A program made the position numbers and the translations under genes. Below are positions 43,304 through 49,672 of a stretch of 64,000 bases of DNA, in pieces. The notes beneath the pieces are model-generated. The model was given only the letters and a program-made list of their open reading frames with translations, was not told where the DNA came from and did not search any database. The first letter of the stretch is position 1; every line of letters starts with the position of its first letter. Source of the stretch: Colwellia sp. 20A7. Lineage in GTDB: Bacteria; Pseudomonadota; Gammaproteobacteria; Enterobacterales; Alteromonadaceae. The stretch covers positions 2,480,001-2,544,000 of the forward strand of contig NZ_CP047130.1 of assembly GCF_009832865.1 (NCBI RefSeq), given 5' to 3'.

Positions 43304-43846
43304 CTATATTGTTCGCTTAGCATCTAAGCCAAGAAATTTATCTACTGATAAAAAGCCTGGTCCTCGTGCAAAAATTACTAATAATGAAGCTGCCCACCAA
43401 GATGCAGGATTAATCCAATGATCTAATGTTGGAAAAACCGCAAGCTGAATAAACATTGTCATACCAATCAAGCCTAATGCTGCAAAGCGAGAAAACAAAC
43501 CGATAATCAATAAAATTGGTAGTACTACTTCAACAACACCCGCCACAACAGCAAGTAATTCAATTATTGTTACCGTAAGTGAACCATCAACATAATCTAA
43601 TGTTTGAGGATCACAAAGAAGTAATGCTCCGTCTCTTATTGGATCTGGACAAAAGAACTCATATTTAAATAGGTCATATTTATCAACATTAAATTGTAAA
43701 AAGCCATCCCATTTACTTAACCCTGAATCGAGAAATACCTTAGCCACCATAAAGCGAATGGATAATAACGCCAAAGGCTCTAGAAACCGTGATAACTGCT
43801 CACCCATTTGTACATACAATAATTGTAATTTTTTAATCATGGTCAT
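43304..43846 (-). CDS. DoxX-family membrane protein of the bufferin operon
   Basis: 180 residues with about four membrane helices. DoxX features include PLALLSIRFMVAKVFLDSGLSKW near the start and GVVEVVLPILLIIGLFSRFAALGLIGMTMFIQ. It is the last gene of the bufA-bufB-bufC group, 46 bases after bufC, with ribosome site AAGGA before the ATG. DoxX proteins commonly close DUF692/DUF2063 operons (Hvf, bufferin), possibly for redox or export support; their exact job there is not settled. Confidence 0.88.
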   Translation of the reverse strand: MTMIKKLQLLYVQMGEQLSRFLEPLALLSIRFMVAKVFLDSGLSKWDGFLQFNVDKYDLFKYEFFCPDPIRDGALLLCDPQTLDYVDGSLTVTIIELLAVVAGVVEVVLPILLIIGLFSRFAALGLIGMTMFIQLAVFPTLDHWINPASWWAASLLVIFARGPGFLSVDKFLGLDAKRTI

Positions 43847-43892
43847 GCTATTTCCTTATTTTATTTATTATTTATGTTTTTAATTTATTTTT

Positions 43893-44735
43893 TTAATTAA
43901 TGTTAATTTCTAATAACTCATTTTGTAAGCAAGCAGTAAAAGCATCACTTACTTCAAAGTTTTCATCTAGCGCAATAGCGGCATCAAAAGCCTCCCCCAA
44001 CGTTCTACCGGTACCTTGCAAAGCCTGCATAAGTGCAACCTCAGCAATAGAAAGTAAACGGGCTTGTACAGCACCTTGCAAACGCCATAACATCACAAAA
44101 CCATCGGCTAATGATTCAGTTGTCACAGCATCATTATTATTTGTTTTTAACGAAACCCATTCAGAAAAGGCATTTTCTCTTACACTCAGCAATAACACAC
44201 TTGGGTTAAGTTTTACTTTAAGATCAGTAAACTCAACTTCTTGCTCAATTAAGTGTGTAACATACTCTATGGTTAATGTTTCGCTTGAATCGGCACTCAT
44301 CAAACTCATTAACCACGCATAATCTAAACGTGCGATATCAGCTAAGCTAACGTATAAATTAGCAAAATTTTTCTGAGCTACAACCAGGCTAAAAGTATCA
44401 TTATCTTCAAGCTCACTACCTTTAACTTCAATATCTTTAATTAGCTCTGTAATAAAATCAGGAAAGTTCTTTCCATATCCAACCAAGGTGCCTTGCTCTG
44501 GTGGAAAATGGTCAACATAAAGTCGTGCCATTTTTCTAAAGTCATCACTACCTAGCTTTTTTTCGCACATAGGAAAATTAGCAGCTAAAGCATCAACACA
44601 GCCTTTATAAAACCCGTTGCGATAAACAGCCATTCGCTCTAAATGAGATGAATTTTCACAAAAAGGTGCCATTACACTAAGATCACCATGGCGTAAATAG
44701 CGAGTAAAAGCATCAATGTATTGAGTAGTACTCAT
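43893..44735 (-). CDS. Bufferin-type MNIO partner protein (DUF2063, BufC/HvfC-like)
   Basis: 280 residues. The N-terminal DUF2063 domain (FTRYLRHGDLSVMAPF, RMAVYRNGFYKGCVDALAANFPMCEKKLG, YVDHFPPEQGTLVGYGKNFPDFI) is called putative DNA-binding in databases. In MNIO systems it acts as the recognition partner that brings the precursor peptide to the enzyme. The frame is open upstream to 44786, but the ATG at 44735 shares its A with the bufB stop (TAATG), which fits coupled translation and gives the usual N-terminus. The C-terminal half is less conserved. Confidence 0.88.
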   Translation of the reverse strand: MSTTQYIDAFTRYLRHGDLSVMAPFCENSSHLERMAVYRNGFYKGCVDALAANFPMCEKKLGSDDFRKMARLYVDHFPPEQGTLVGYGKNFPDFITELIKDIEVKGSELEDNDTFSLVVAQKNFANLYVSLADIARLDYAWLMSLMSADSSETLTIEYVTHLIEQEVEFTDLKVKLNPSVLLLSVRENAFSEWVSLKTNNNDAVTTESLADGFVMLWRLQGAVQARLLSIAEVALMQALQGTGRTLGEAFDAAIALDENFEVSDAFTACLQNELLEININ

Positions 44736-45688
44736 TAGCGAATCATTTCTTGATGAGGCATATTTAAATTTTTTTGTCCTGTGCATTGGTCTAAATAATC
44801 TTGAGCTGTTTTACGTTCGCTCATCAGATCAGCAAACGACGGAATATTCGCATCTCGCTCAACCAATACAGGTGTTTGACCAAATAACCCTAACGCTTGT
44901 TCCAATAATTTCCAGACTGGTGGTGCAACTGCTGCTGCATGGCTGTCAATTAATAGTGACTGACCAAGGGTAGGATCGGGATCATGCCCAGCAATATGTA
45001 TTTCTCCAACAAGATCAGCGGGTATCTGCTTTAGGTAGTTCAGCGCATCAATGCCTGTATTTTTACTGCTGATATATAAATTATTAATATCAATCAACAA
45101 ACCACAACCTGATCTCCTAGCAGCCTCAACTAAAAATTGAGGTTCGTCCATATCACTTATAAAATCTAAATAGTTACTTGGGTTTTCAATTAAAATAGAC
45201 CGACCAATACCTGACTGGTAACAATCAACACCATCAATTAATGATTGCAATGCATCTTGTGTTCGAGGTAAAGGCATTAAATCTGCAAAATATTTACCCT
45301 CTGATTTAGACCATACCGCATGCTCAGATACTAACACTGGTTGAAATTCATCAATCAGTGTTTTCACTTGCTTAGTATGATCAGTCATGGCTTTATGATC
45401 AGAGCCTAGCGAACCACCAACACCATGAAAACTGATATTATGATTTTCACGAACCGCTCTCAAATAATTTAGTCGAGGGCCACCGACAACAAAATAATTT
45501 TCAGTATGTACTTCAAACCAAAGATTATTATTTGAGGATGAAGTTTGCACAGGTAGTGATAAAATATCGTCAAGGTGTTCAGGTTTTAAACTTAAACCGG
45601 CACCTAATTTATCCACAGCAATAACTTGCTGAGGATAATTATTTTGGGAATAATGTAAATTATTAACCTTCAAGTGAACCTGTGCCAT
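44735..45688 (-). CDS. MNIO peptide-modifying enzyme (DUF692, BufB/HvfB-like)
   Basis: 317 residues. A multinuclear non-heme iron oxygenase with TIM-barrel fold (DUF692). It converts cysteines in the partner peptide to heterocycles such as 5-thiooxazole in bufferins. Metal-binding and conserved segments seen: [71 protein letters not shown] and [11 protein letters not shown]. Its start overlaps the precursor gene by 26 bases and its end overlaps bufC by one base, so all three are tightly coupled. Confidence 0.92.
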
Positions 45689-46010
45689 TAGGTGTTACAA
45701 TTGATTCACATGTGCCTTTAGGTGAATATGTCCACGCATTCGCTTGGAAATCTGATGTTGAAGTGCCCTCACAACTAGTACCAGCACCTGCTTTACAATC
45801 ATTCTCACCCGCTAAAGCAATGCCAAAACATTTATCTTTACGTCCACGAACTTTGTCACCCGCTATCCAGTTAGTAATTTGTTCTTGTACTTTTGGTGAT
45901 GCCCCTTCTGCAACCGTTAATTGGTTATTAGGACCTGCCATTGCACCTGTGCTTAACGCTGCAACTGATGCACCAACTAATAAAGCTTTAGTTAAATTTA
46001 CTTTTTTCAT
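45663..46010 (-). CDS. Bufferin-type RiPP precursor (DUF2282, BufA1-like)
   Basis: 115 residues. Signal peptide residues 1-25 ([16 protein letters not shown]), then a soluble part with four cysteines at 61, 72, 80 and 101 in the family pattern [24 protein letters not shown] and PKGTCES. Members are post-translationally modified and exported proteins that bind copper or other metals and protect cells. Ribosome site AGGAG lies seven bases before the ATG. First gene of the operon; the promoter should lie in 46011-46276, where I see no clear operator. Confidence 0.9.
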
Positions 46011-46276
46011 TTGTATACTCCTGATTAAAATATTATTTCTTGTTTCATCGAGGGTTATTAATGAAAAAAGTTAATAACAGTCACATTCTCAAAACAAGTA
46101 CATTAAGGATAAGTCATATCCCTGTATTAGCAATTTAAGAGACCTATACTTATAATAAATCATTTCAAAGTAATTTTAATTAGTTGAAATTACTTGAAAA
46201 TAATCAGTAATTATTATTCATTATCACTATTAATTTATAATTAAACAAAACTTTGCTCTATGTTACCTACCCTTGT

Positions 46277-47131: not shown

Positions 47132-49672
47132 ATGCAACATTACCGTATAAACACATTAGCACTAGCCATTACTTTAGCTGTTAGCGCTCCAAGCATTGTA
47201 AGTGCACAAGAATCACAAGAAACAACCGCTGAAAACCTTGAACGCATTTCTGTATTAGGCTCACGTGTATCTAACCGTACTTCTACAGAGTCTTCTTCTC
47301 CTATCGATTTAATTGACGCAGATGATTTAAATAAAGGTGGTTTTACTGAACTTGGTCAAAGTTTACAAGCAACAGCACCGTCATTTAACTTTACGCGTAC
47401 ACAAGTTTCTGATGGCTCTGATTTATTCAGACCGGCAACACTGCGTGGCTTGCAACCTGATCAAACATTAGTGTTAATTAATGGTAAACGTCGTCATAAT
47501 CAATCTATCTTTGGTCTGAACGGTACTGTTGGCGCAGGCGCTGCAGGCACTGATATGAACGCTATTCCACTAACTGCATTGAAAGGTGTTGAAGTATTAC
47601 GAGATGGCGCTGCAGCACAATATGGCTCAGATGCTATCGCGGGTGTTATTAACTTATCGCTTAATAACTCTACTGGCGTTACCACTGGTTATGTTCAATA
47701 CGGCGGTACAAGTGAAGGTGACGGAGATACCCTTTCTACCGGTTTAAACCGTGGTTTTGAGCTAGGTGATAATGGCGGATTCATTAACTTATCACTTGAA
47801 TACCGTGATGCCGATGGTACTAACCGTGCTGAGCGCGATACTGGTGGCTCACTTGACGTAGAGCCTGGCACATTATCTGATGAAGTACGTTGGGGCCAAG
47901 GTAATTCAGCGAGTGAATTCACTTCGCTGTTTTATAATATGGCAATTCCTTTTGGTGATAACGAGCTATATTCATTTGGTGGCTACTCTGAGCGCACCGC
48001 GTTAGGGAATGGCTTTTACCGTAACTTTAACGAAGCGTCTAAAAACGTAACACAAGTATACAGCGATGGTTTTTTACCACGCATTTATAATGAAGCAGAA
48101 GATACGTCTGTTGCGGTAGGTTTAAAAGGTGATATTAACCCTGAATGGACTTACGATGTTTCAGCAGTATATGGCGAGAACCAATATGATTTCTCTTCTC
48201 GTAATACGTTAAATGCCTCTTACGCTGCTGAGTATTTATTTAATAACCCAGAAGCAAGCGATACTGAAATTGCCGCGAACTCAGGCCCATCTGGCGGTTA
48301 TTCTGGTGGTTTCAGATTCGATCAAACAACGGTTAATCTTGATATTAACGGTATCGTGGATATTGGTCGTAGTGAACCGCTTTATGTGTCAGTAGGCGCT
48401 GAATATCGTAAAGAAAACTACGAAATCGTTGCAGGTGAAGAATCTTCATATGCGTGTGGTTTAGCCAATATGGATACCTCATATCCTTCGGTTAACGACC
48501 CTGAGCAATTCGCTGAATGTGGTTTTCAGGCTTATAACGGTTTACGTCCAGAGGCAACCAACGACAGTGACCGTAACAGCTACGCATTCTATACAAACGT
48601 TGAAACTATGATTAACGATGCTTGGAATGTTAGCGGTGCACTTCGTTATGAAGATTTCTCTGATGCAGGTGATGACATCATTGGTAAGTTAGCCACTCGT
48701 TATGAATTTAACGATGATTTTGCGGTACGTGCAGCGGTATCAACTGGCTTTAGAGCGCCTTCTCTTCAACAAAGTGGCTACACAGCGTTCACAACGAACT
48801 TAGGCTCAGACGGAACACTAACGCAATCATTCACAGCGACAACAGGCTCAGCATTCCCAAGTGCATTAGGCGTTGATAGTTTAGAACTTGAAACATCTAA
48901 AAACTTAAGTGCTGGTTTTGTTTATGATGTGAGTAGCGAATTATCATTAACCGTAGACTTTTACCGTGTAGAGATTAAAGACCGTATCAACTTAGGTAGT
49001 TTACTATCCGCTGACGATGTTGCCTTTAGTGCTGACGCTGTAACCGCTCTTCAAGCAACTGGTGCTGTACAAGCCAACTACTTTTCAAACTCAGTAGATT
49101 CAACAACACAAGGTGTTGATATTATTGCGTCATATCGTACCGAGCTTGATGGTGCTAACGTAGCAGTAACATTTGCAGGTAATATCAACGATACAACCAT
49201 TGATAATGTTAACGCTTCTGAAGGTATTCCTGAAAGTGTTGCCTTAGATGACCTACAACGTAGCTTCTTAACTGACGGACAACCGGGCGAACGTGCAACA
49301 CTAACCTTCGATTATGGACGTGACGCATACATAGCAACGCTACGCTTTAATTATTTTGGCGAAACTGATGTTAAATATTTCGGTAATGACCATATTTCAT
49401 TACCTGGAGAGTTGTCACCAACAGGATCATTTAAACCAACAAGTACTGTAGAGTCTGCTGTGTTAGTTGACTTAAATGTAAGTTACAAAATTAACGAAAT
49501 ATTGTCACTTTCTGTCGGTGCTGATAATTTATTTGATCAAACACCAGATGAATTAGGTGACGACGAAGTACTTAACTTTATTACCAATGGAGCCTTTAAA
49601 TACCCTGTACGTGCATTGCCTTACGGCTTTGACGGCAGAACGTATTATGCTAAATTAAGCTTTAGTTTTTAA
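47132..49672 (+). CDS. TonB-dependent outer-membrane receptor
   Basis: 846 residues. Signal peptide (LAITLAVSAPSIVSA), TonB-box-like region (LERISVLGSR), plug domain (about 45-190) with RPATLRGLQPDQTLVLINGKRR, LKGVEVLRDGAAAQYGSDAIAGVINL, then a 22-strand barrel ending in YYAKLSFSF with the terminal phenylalanine typical of outer-membrane proteins. Substrate unknown; the sequence groups with receptors of marine bacteria that import large organic or siderophore-like molecules. Strong SD AGGGG precedes the ATG. Divergent from the bufferin operon. Confidence 0.93.
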   Translation: MQHYRINTLALAITLAVSAPSIVSAQESQETTAENLERISVLGSRVSNRTSTESSSPIDLIDADDLNKGGFTELGQSLQATAPSFNFTRTQVSDGSDLFRPATLRGLQPDQTLVLINGKRRHNQSIFGLNGTVGAGAAGTDMNAIPLTALKGVEVLRDGAAAQYGSDAIAGVINLSLNNSTGVTTGYVQYGGTSEGDGDTLSTGLNRGFELGDNGGFINLSLEYRDADGTNRAERDTGGSLDVEPGTLSDEVRWGQGNSASEFTSLFYNMAIPFGDNELYSFGGYSERTALGNGFYRNFNEASKNVTQVYSDGFLPRIYNEAEDTSVAVGLKGDINPEWTYDVSAVYGENQYDFSSRNTLNASYAAEYLFNNPEASDTEIAANSGPSGGYSGGFRFDQTTVNLDINGIVDIGRSEPLYVSVGAEYRKENYEIVAGEESSYACGLANMDTSYPSVNDPEQFAECGFQAYNGLRPEATNDSDRNSYAFYTNVETMINDAWNVSGALRYEDFSDAGDDIIGKLATRYEFNDDFAVRAAVSTGFRAPSLQQSGYTAFTTNLGSDGTLTQSFTATTGSAFPSALGVDSLELETSKNLSAGFVYDVSSELSLTVDFYRVEIKDRINLGSLLSADDVAFSADAVTALQATGAVQANYFSNSVDSTTQGVDIIASYRTELDGANVAVTFAGNINDTTIDNVNASEGIPESVALDDLQRSFLTDGQPGERATLTFDYGRDAYIATLRFNYFGETDVKYFGNDHISLPGELSPTGSFKPTSTVESAVLVDLNVSYKINEILSLSVGADNLFDQTPDELGDDEVLNFITNGAFKYPVRALPYGFDGRTYYAKLSFSF

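Follow-up and report, generated by a model that had tools for sequence, protein, structure and literature searches.

Several described systems resemble the locus analysed here, among them the Caulobacter operon that extends up to CC3255-CC3257, which we take to be the characterised bufferin-1 (Buf1) operon. Its genes for DUF692, DUF2063 and DoxX proteins stand in a row, as they do in Colwellia sp. 20A7 (excerpts of PMC3511200; all papers given by PMC number are cited from excerpts), and Caulobacter vibrioides was the only one of 14 control genomes with a DUF2282 match. Bufferins are described as chelators of excess copper; in Buf1 precursors the central cysteines are the targets of posttranslational modification and the outer pair forms a disulphide (PMC12452194). 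The modifications are 5-thiooxazoles introduced by a complex of the MNIO (DUF692) enzyme and a partner protein; as a rule the products bind copper (PMC12452194, PMC13097082). For 5-thiooxazoles an absorbance close to 305 nm is given (PMC13097082).

The GIG operons, gigPABT of Cupriavidus metallidurans and lpg2105-2108 of Legionella pneumophila, consist like the present one of four genes with DoxX-like and DUF2063 members, and both respond to copper and gold, the Legionella operon at 37°C (PMC5413113, PMC10304878). The oxazolin hvf system of Haemophilus influenzae likewise has an MNIO enzyme, an RRE-bearing partner and a Sec signal on the precursor, and the excerpted literature groups it with the EGKCG precursors. 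Fontiphorin and bulbicupramide, for which the class captophorins has been proposed, share the MNIO/DUF2063 pair and thiooxazoles (PMC13097082, PMC12538549), those of bulbicupramide being tentatively assigned, whereas their precursors are of other types. A sequence-only reading of the present DNA had supposed that few examples from marine Alteromonadales were likely to have been studied. The group is in fact present in the literature, with Cognaticolwellia aestuarii (Buf2) and Pseudoalteromonas byunsanensis (EGKCG type) in the legend of Figure 3 of PMC12452194, but no Buf1 of the group is named in that legend.

Here we analysed a stretch of 64,000 nucleotides (hereafter the window) of the Colwellia sp. 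20A7 genome, a single contig of 4,580,615 bases. The operon at positions 43304-46010 is very probably a bufferin-1 RiPP operon, whose peptide should, by analogy, bind surplus copper in the cell envelope.

Layout and family assignment of the operon

The complete four-gene unit reported in the sequence-only reading was recovered, with all open reading frames in the claimed place on the minus strand: a bufA-type precursor gene (45663-46010, 115 aa), a bufB-type MNIO gene (44735-45688, 317 aa), a bufC-type gene for a DUF2063 partner protein (43893-44735, 280 aa), and a gene for a long-form DoxX-family membrane protein (43304-43846, 180 aa). The proposed placement in DUF2282, DUF692 and DUF2063 was borne out by HMM searches, in which the precursor (DUF2282, PF10048; 76.6 bits against a curated Pfam cut-off of 22.4), the enzyme (MbnB_TglH_ChrH, PF05114; 283.4 against 25) and the partner (DUF2063, PF09836; 78.7 against 27.2) all scored above threshold, as did DoxX (PF07681; 42.6 against 23.6). 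The precursor matched no NCBIfam model, and the complete genome contains no second MNIO or DUF2282 match besides this operon.

The earlier label 'bufferin/Hvf-type' held in its first half and not in its second. BufB narrowly passed the NCBIfam equivalog model for the bufferin maturase (NF050167, MNIO_BufB; 315.1 bits, cut-off 310) and failed the HvfB model (201.1 of 360 bits), and therefore we assign the operon to bufferin-1 and not to the Hvf type. An oxazolin/Hvf-type system would share the general gene set and would account for the sub-threshold matches to HvfB, HvfC (25.7 of 142 bits) and HvfX (37.9 of 80 bits), but all three scores are far under their cut-offs, and the precursor belongs to DUF2282, has four cysteines and lacks an EGKCG repeat, which makes that assignment extremely improbable. 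The bufferin-1 assignment draws on the curated HMMs, the gene order, the MNIO residues and the fold of the partner.

The 1-base overlap of bufB and bufC (TAATG) stands with a bufC start at 44735 and is common to 13 of the 17 loci (window included) that have a bufC, although the longest open reading frame of this gene begins farther upstream, at 44786. The 26-base overlap of bufA and bufB depends on the start chosen, since it applies if bufB starts at the ATG at 45688, and an in-frame TTG at 45673 is a rival candidate. With the TTG the overlap would be 11 bases, and its counterpart gives 14 in two loci. Among the window and its relatives L063-L078, an ATG or GTG start at -26/-29 was listed in 14 of 17 loci, and the TTG candidate occurred in all 14 loci whose candidate list extended that far.

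Precursor, enzyme and partner protein

The four cysteines named for the precursor (Cys61, Cys72, Cys80 and Cys101) are exactly placed. Their columns hold cysteine in 96, 97, 97 and 97 of 97 extracted precursors, the sole exception being a precursor truncated by the end of its contig (L098). This set comprised the window, 80 precursors from 79 of the 80 named loci (two from L082, none from L101) and 16 precursors from the same-family loci L003-L032, for which only matches on the plus strand of the stored locus were kept and minus-strand ones were dropped. Residues 1-25 (46010-45936, minus strand) form a predicted Sec signal peptide ending in GAMA|GPN, with a KK N-terminus, a hydrophobic core and an AxA site, a typical shape as read by eye and from a hydropathy scan. 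A sequence search of the PDB with the precursor gave no match at E 1. One relative, Leucothrix arctica (L082), has tandem DUF2282 precursors; the first (open reading frame from 4897) ends in a tail of NPCAA(K) repeats, the spacing of which is CxxxxC-like, and may have arisen by fusion of two types of MNIO precursor.

BufB is a relative of 3BWW. In 84 MNIO rows (the window and 83 rows from named loci), 17 charged or polar residues are kept in at least 97%, D248 and H250 among them. These two align to D241 and H243 of 3BWW, and from the alignment they are the putative counterparts of D242 and H244 of HvfB, whose alanine variants are inactive (PMC13419390). HvfB N175 would correspond to one of the two asparagines in the DINN motif of the window; N203 is invariant across the 84 rows.

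At E 1, a PDB sequence search with BufC was negative. Its predicted model (pLDDT 90.8) returned three matches at E ≤0.001 in a fold search, 8hi7_A and 8hci_A of the TglHI complex, in which chain A is TglI as judged by length, and 3dee (NGO1945). It is these structures, TglHI and NGO1945, that PMC12452194 names for MNIO partners. Together, PF09836 and the model indicate the DUF2063 partner with a predicted RRE-type fold (PME-type 1) that belongs to Buf1.

Lineage and genomic neighbourhood

A scan of public genomes with the window MNIO yielded 104 relatives, of which the best 80 were kept. In 76 of these best 80 loci the four genes lie in the same order on one strand, and in the remainder (L075, L088, L097, L101) the order is incomplete, a member being missing at a contig end. 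One of the 76 ordered loci, that of L. arctica, has the two precursors. In three further loci of the 76 (L086, L090, L092) the buf operon is preceded upstream by a second MNIO-DUF2063 pair, and the MNIO of this pair groups with another type in the tree.

A tree of 142 MNIO rows, built by a quick maximum-likelihood method (SH-aLRT support only, long branches flagged), places the window in a clade of 17 rows with an SH-aLRT of 100, comprising the window, Colwellia sp. C2M11, Pseudocolwellia sp. AS88, Paraglaciecola polaris, two Pseudoalteromonas and eleven Neptunomonas/Amphritea. The clade thus unites the window with Oceanospirillaceae across family lines. Among 28 rows from DUF2282 loci of the window's own family, which are only part of the same-family set (L003-L032), 24 form a separate clade, three belong to another group, and one (L032) lies in the wider 36-row clade of the window. 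At 28 of the 30 loci L003-L032 blastp found an MNIO, 29-47% identical to that of the window; two genomes (G046 and G054) have MNIOs that are 81-83% identical. Because the window MNIO clade crosses families and stands apart from most of the sampled bufferin-1 MNIOs of its own family, these results suggest horizontal transfer. Horizontal spread among marine Gammaproteobacteria is the best reading of the pattern, repeated loss being the alternative.

Colwellia sp. C2M11 (L063; L166 in genome G170) carries the operon in the same slot, between a methyl-accepting chemotaxis protein (MCP) gene and a TonB receptor gene. DNA identity to the window is 94% on the TonB side, 88% in the MCP gene and 86% in the operon, and protein identities are 98% for DoxX, 93% for BufA, 87% for BufB, 82% for BufC, 92% for MCP and 98% for the TonB receptor. 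In a search for an empty site, both flanks were strongly matched together only in this genome, where the operon is present. After the C2M11 operon come genes for a Na+/H+ exchanger, a glutamate-synthase-domain protein and a sulphur-transport protein, and then a second copy (L166:2690-3208) of an intact bufA and about 165 bases of bufB, separated from the full operon by these three genes. Such a reduced copy, together with the patchy occurrence of DUF2282 (47 of 147 same-family genomes, MNIO being found in 108, and 20 of 39 genomes of the genus), is what one would look for if the buf genes of Colwellia sp. 20A7 had been acquired and were now silent or in decay. We consider this very unlikely, given that its four frames are intact, the conserved MNIO residues are retained, and DoxX and BufA remain as close to their C2M11 counterparts as stated above.

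In L063-L067 the DoxX gene is directly followed by the gene for a close relative of the exchanger (L063:8548-9789), which was not found at the remaining 75 of the 80 loci in the sequence examined. The window lacks it, and the only relative in the Colwellia sp. 20A7 genome is 28% identical and lies elsewhere. Since 82 bases of the window are 77% similar to the stretch after DoxX in L063, the exchanger may have been lost from the window.

The TonB receptor gene (47132-49672, plus strand) had been described as divergent from the operon; it is so in orientation, though 1.1 kb away. As a part of the system it was rejected, for among 17 relatives (L063-L079) it occurs only in C2M11, with little flank available in L075. 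Two further TonB-like regions (L167 in G161 and L168 in G176) are similar to the window in the TonB gene alone (69-70%). No regulator was found among the scanned neighbours, which comprise MCP, a GSDH-domain protein and the TonB receptor. In this the window differs from Caulobacter and from the Buf1 clusters that can contain sigma and anti-sigma factor genes (PMC12452194), no such gene being present among those neighbours, and from C. metallidurans, whose gig operon is divergent from an ECF sigma factor gene (PMC10304878).

A candidate promoter region, read by eye, lies upstream at 46106-46145 (minus strand), and consists of the box AGGTCTCTTAAA followed by TTGCTA, 16 bases and TATCCT. A promoter-like block can be aligned in the window and in L063, L064, L065 and L067. 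In 52 upstream regions of 250 bases, a related pattern was found only in the window, L063, L064 and L065; L067 aligns at the box and differs in the last base of the pattern, and L066 was left out of the judgement as the start used is probably too far upstream. The upstream regions of Oceanospirillaceae look different from that of the window. In the genome, the 14-letter box pattern had one exact match, at the operon, and two sites with one mismatch. A regulon defined by the box was rejected and none is inferred, because the pattern in reverse had four matches.

The DoxX cysteine loop and expected function

In the predicted model of DoxX (pLDDT 91.0), an extra stretch spanning residues 44-89 separates the first two long helices. 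This stretch holds Cys66 and Cys78 in a motif CPx10C, and the protein, at 180 aa, is longer than Caulobacter CC3257 with 150 aa (PMC3511200). The motif was counted in DoxX proteins with a summed score above 100, clade membership being taken from the MNIO tree and DoxX and the other genes being detected with HMMs iterated from the window's own proteins. All 33 DoxX proteins found at the 35 loci in the MNIO clade of the window carry CPx10C. The 46 loci outside that clade gave 45 DoxX proteins, none with the motif; 8 of the 45 have some other C-x8-16-C in the part examined. Three of the 81 loci had no DoxX match (L075, L088, L097), all at contig ends. A narrower loop pattern divided the proteins into 30 with and 48 without, missing L095, L096 and L112, which have other residues after the loop.

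Within the window's own family, eight of 16 loci had a DoxX match, which in L172 lies on the opposite strand, and the loop was seen only in L178, which is from the same genome as L032. Strong DoxX matches (E <1e-40) occurred in nine of 147 same-family genomes, each near a DUF2282 and MNIO match, and all nine have CPx10C. In a database search, C-x11-C was found in all of the best 120 of 311 DoxX matches, which are by selection the nearest relatives, and CPx10C[DN]P in 100 of these. One DoxX match (L188, G065:C34:245070-245582) is reported with one internal TAA, yet the same place (L195) yields a frame of 177 aa that includes the loop.

A manual reading of the charges favours a periplasmic position of the loop. 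A fold search of the PDB with the DoxX model gave no match below E 3.2. In literature searches that paired DoxX with bufferin, or combined it with cysteine, copper and MNIO, no such loop stood in the titles and beginnings of abstracts listed, and for HvfX only unrelated titles stood among the matches listed. We offer only as speculation, and as an unlikely one, that this DoxX is a dedicated envelope partner in a transferable marine bufferin-1 subtype, and that its CPx10C loop binds or hands over copper or forms the bufferin disulphide.

For the peptide of Colwellia sp. 20A7 we infer modification, export, copper binding and the roles of each cysteine pair by analogy with the described systems, and regulation of the operon likewise. 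BufA would be produced with a Sec signal peptide, which, going by the title of a 2026 paper, reportedly doubles as the leader. In the cytoplasm, the complex of BufB, an iron enzyme, and BufC, the DUF2063/RRE partner, would oxidise Cys72 and Cys80 to 5-thiooxazoles. After modification the peptide would be exported and a disulphide would join the outer Cys61 and Cys101. Once mature, the peptide would chelate excess copper in the periplasm, with DoxX as a presumed inner-membrane accessory.

A bufferin-type peptide could instead serve another stress, be it other thiophilic metals, oxidative or sulphur stress. Dichromate and cadmium elicit a response of the sigmaF-dependent homologues in Caulobacter (PMC3511200), gold likewise acts on the Legionella gig promoter (PMC5413113), and a DoxX homologue elsewhere protects against oxidative or sulphur stress (PMC12452194). 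Nevertheless, two homologous operons are copper-responsive (PMC5413113, PMC10304878) and bufferins as such are described as copper chelators (PMC12452194), and we regard another stress as rather unlikely. A strong or uniform phenotype is not to be expected. In the excerpts cited, deletion of gig alone left the copper resistance of C. metallidurans unaffected (PMC10304878), in Caulobacter, mutants in sigF, CC2906 or CC3255 (a DUF692 gene) showed no added sensitivity to dichromate or cadmium (PMC3511200), and copper lowered the gig promoter response of Legionella in planktonic culture at 26°C (PMC5413113). In Microbulbifer, the mmr proteins were undetected under copper (excerpt of PMC12538549).

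The operon is an ordinary, typical member of the published bufferin family (PMC12452194), and one more bufferin-1 operon changes little about that family. The DoxX loop and the apparent mobility are modest extras to a known operon type. The operon is a candidate example of the movement of a copper-stress peptide system from one family of marine bacteria to another, and the restriction of the loop to one MNIO clade among the loci examined offers a handle on the role of DoxX in bufferin-1 operons. If the proposal for the loop is true, DoxX would have a definite task, either in the maturation of the bufferin or in the handling of copper.
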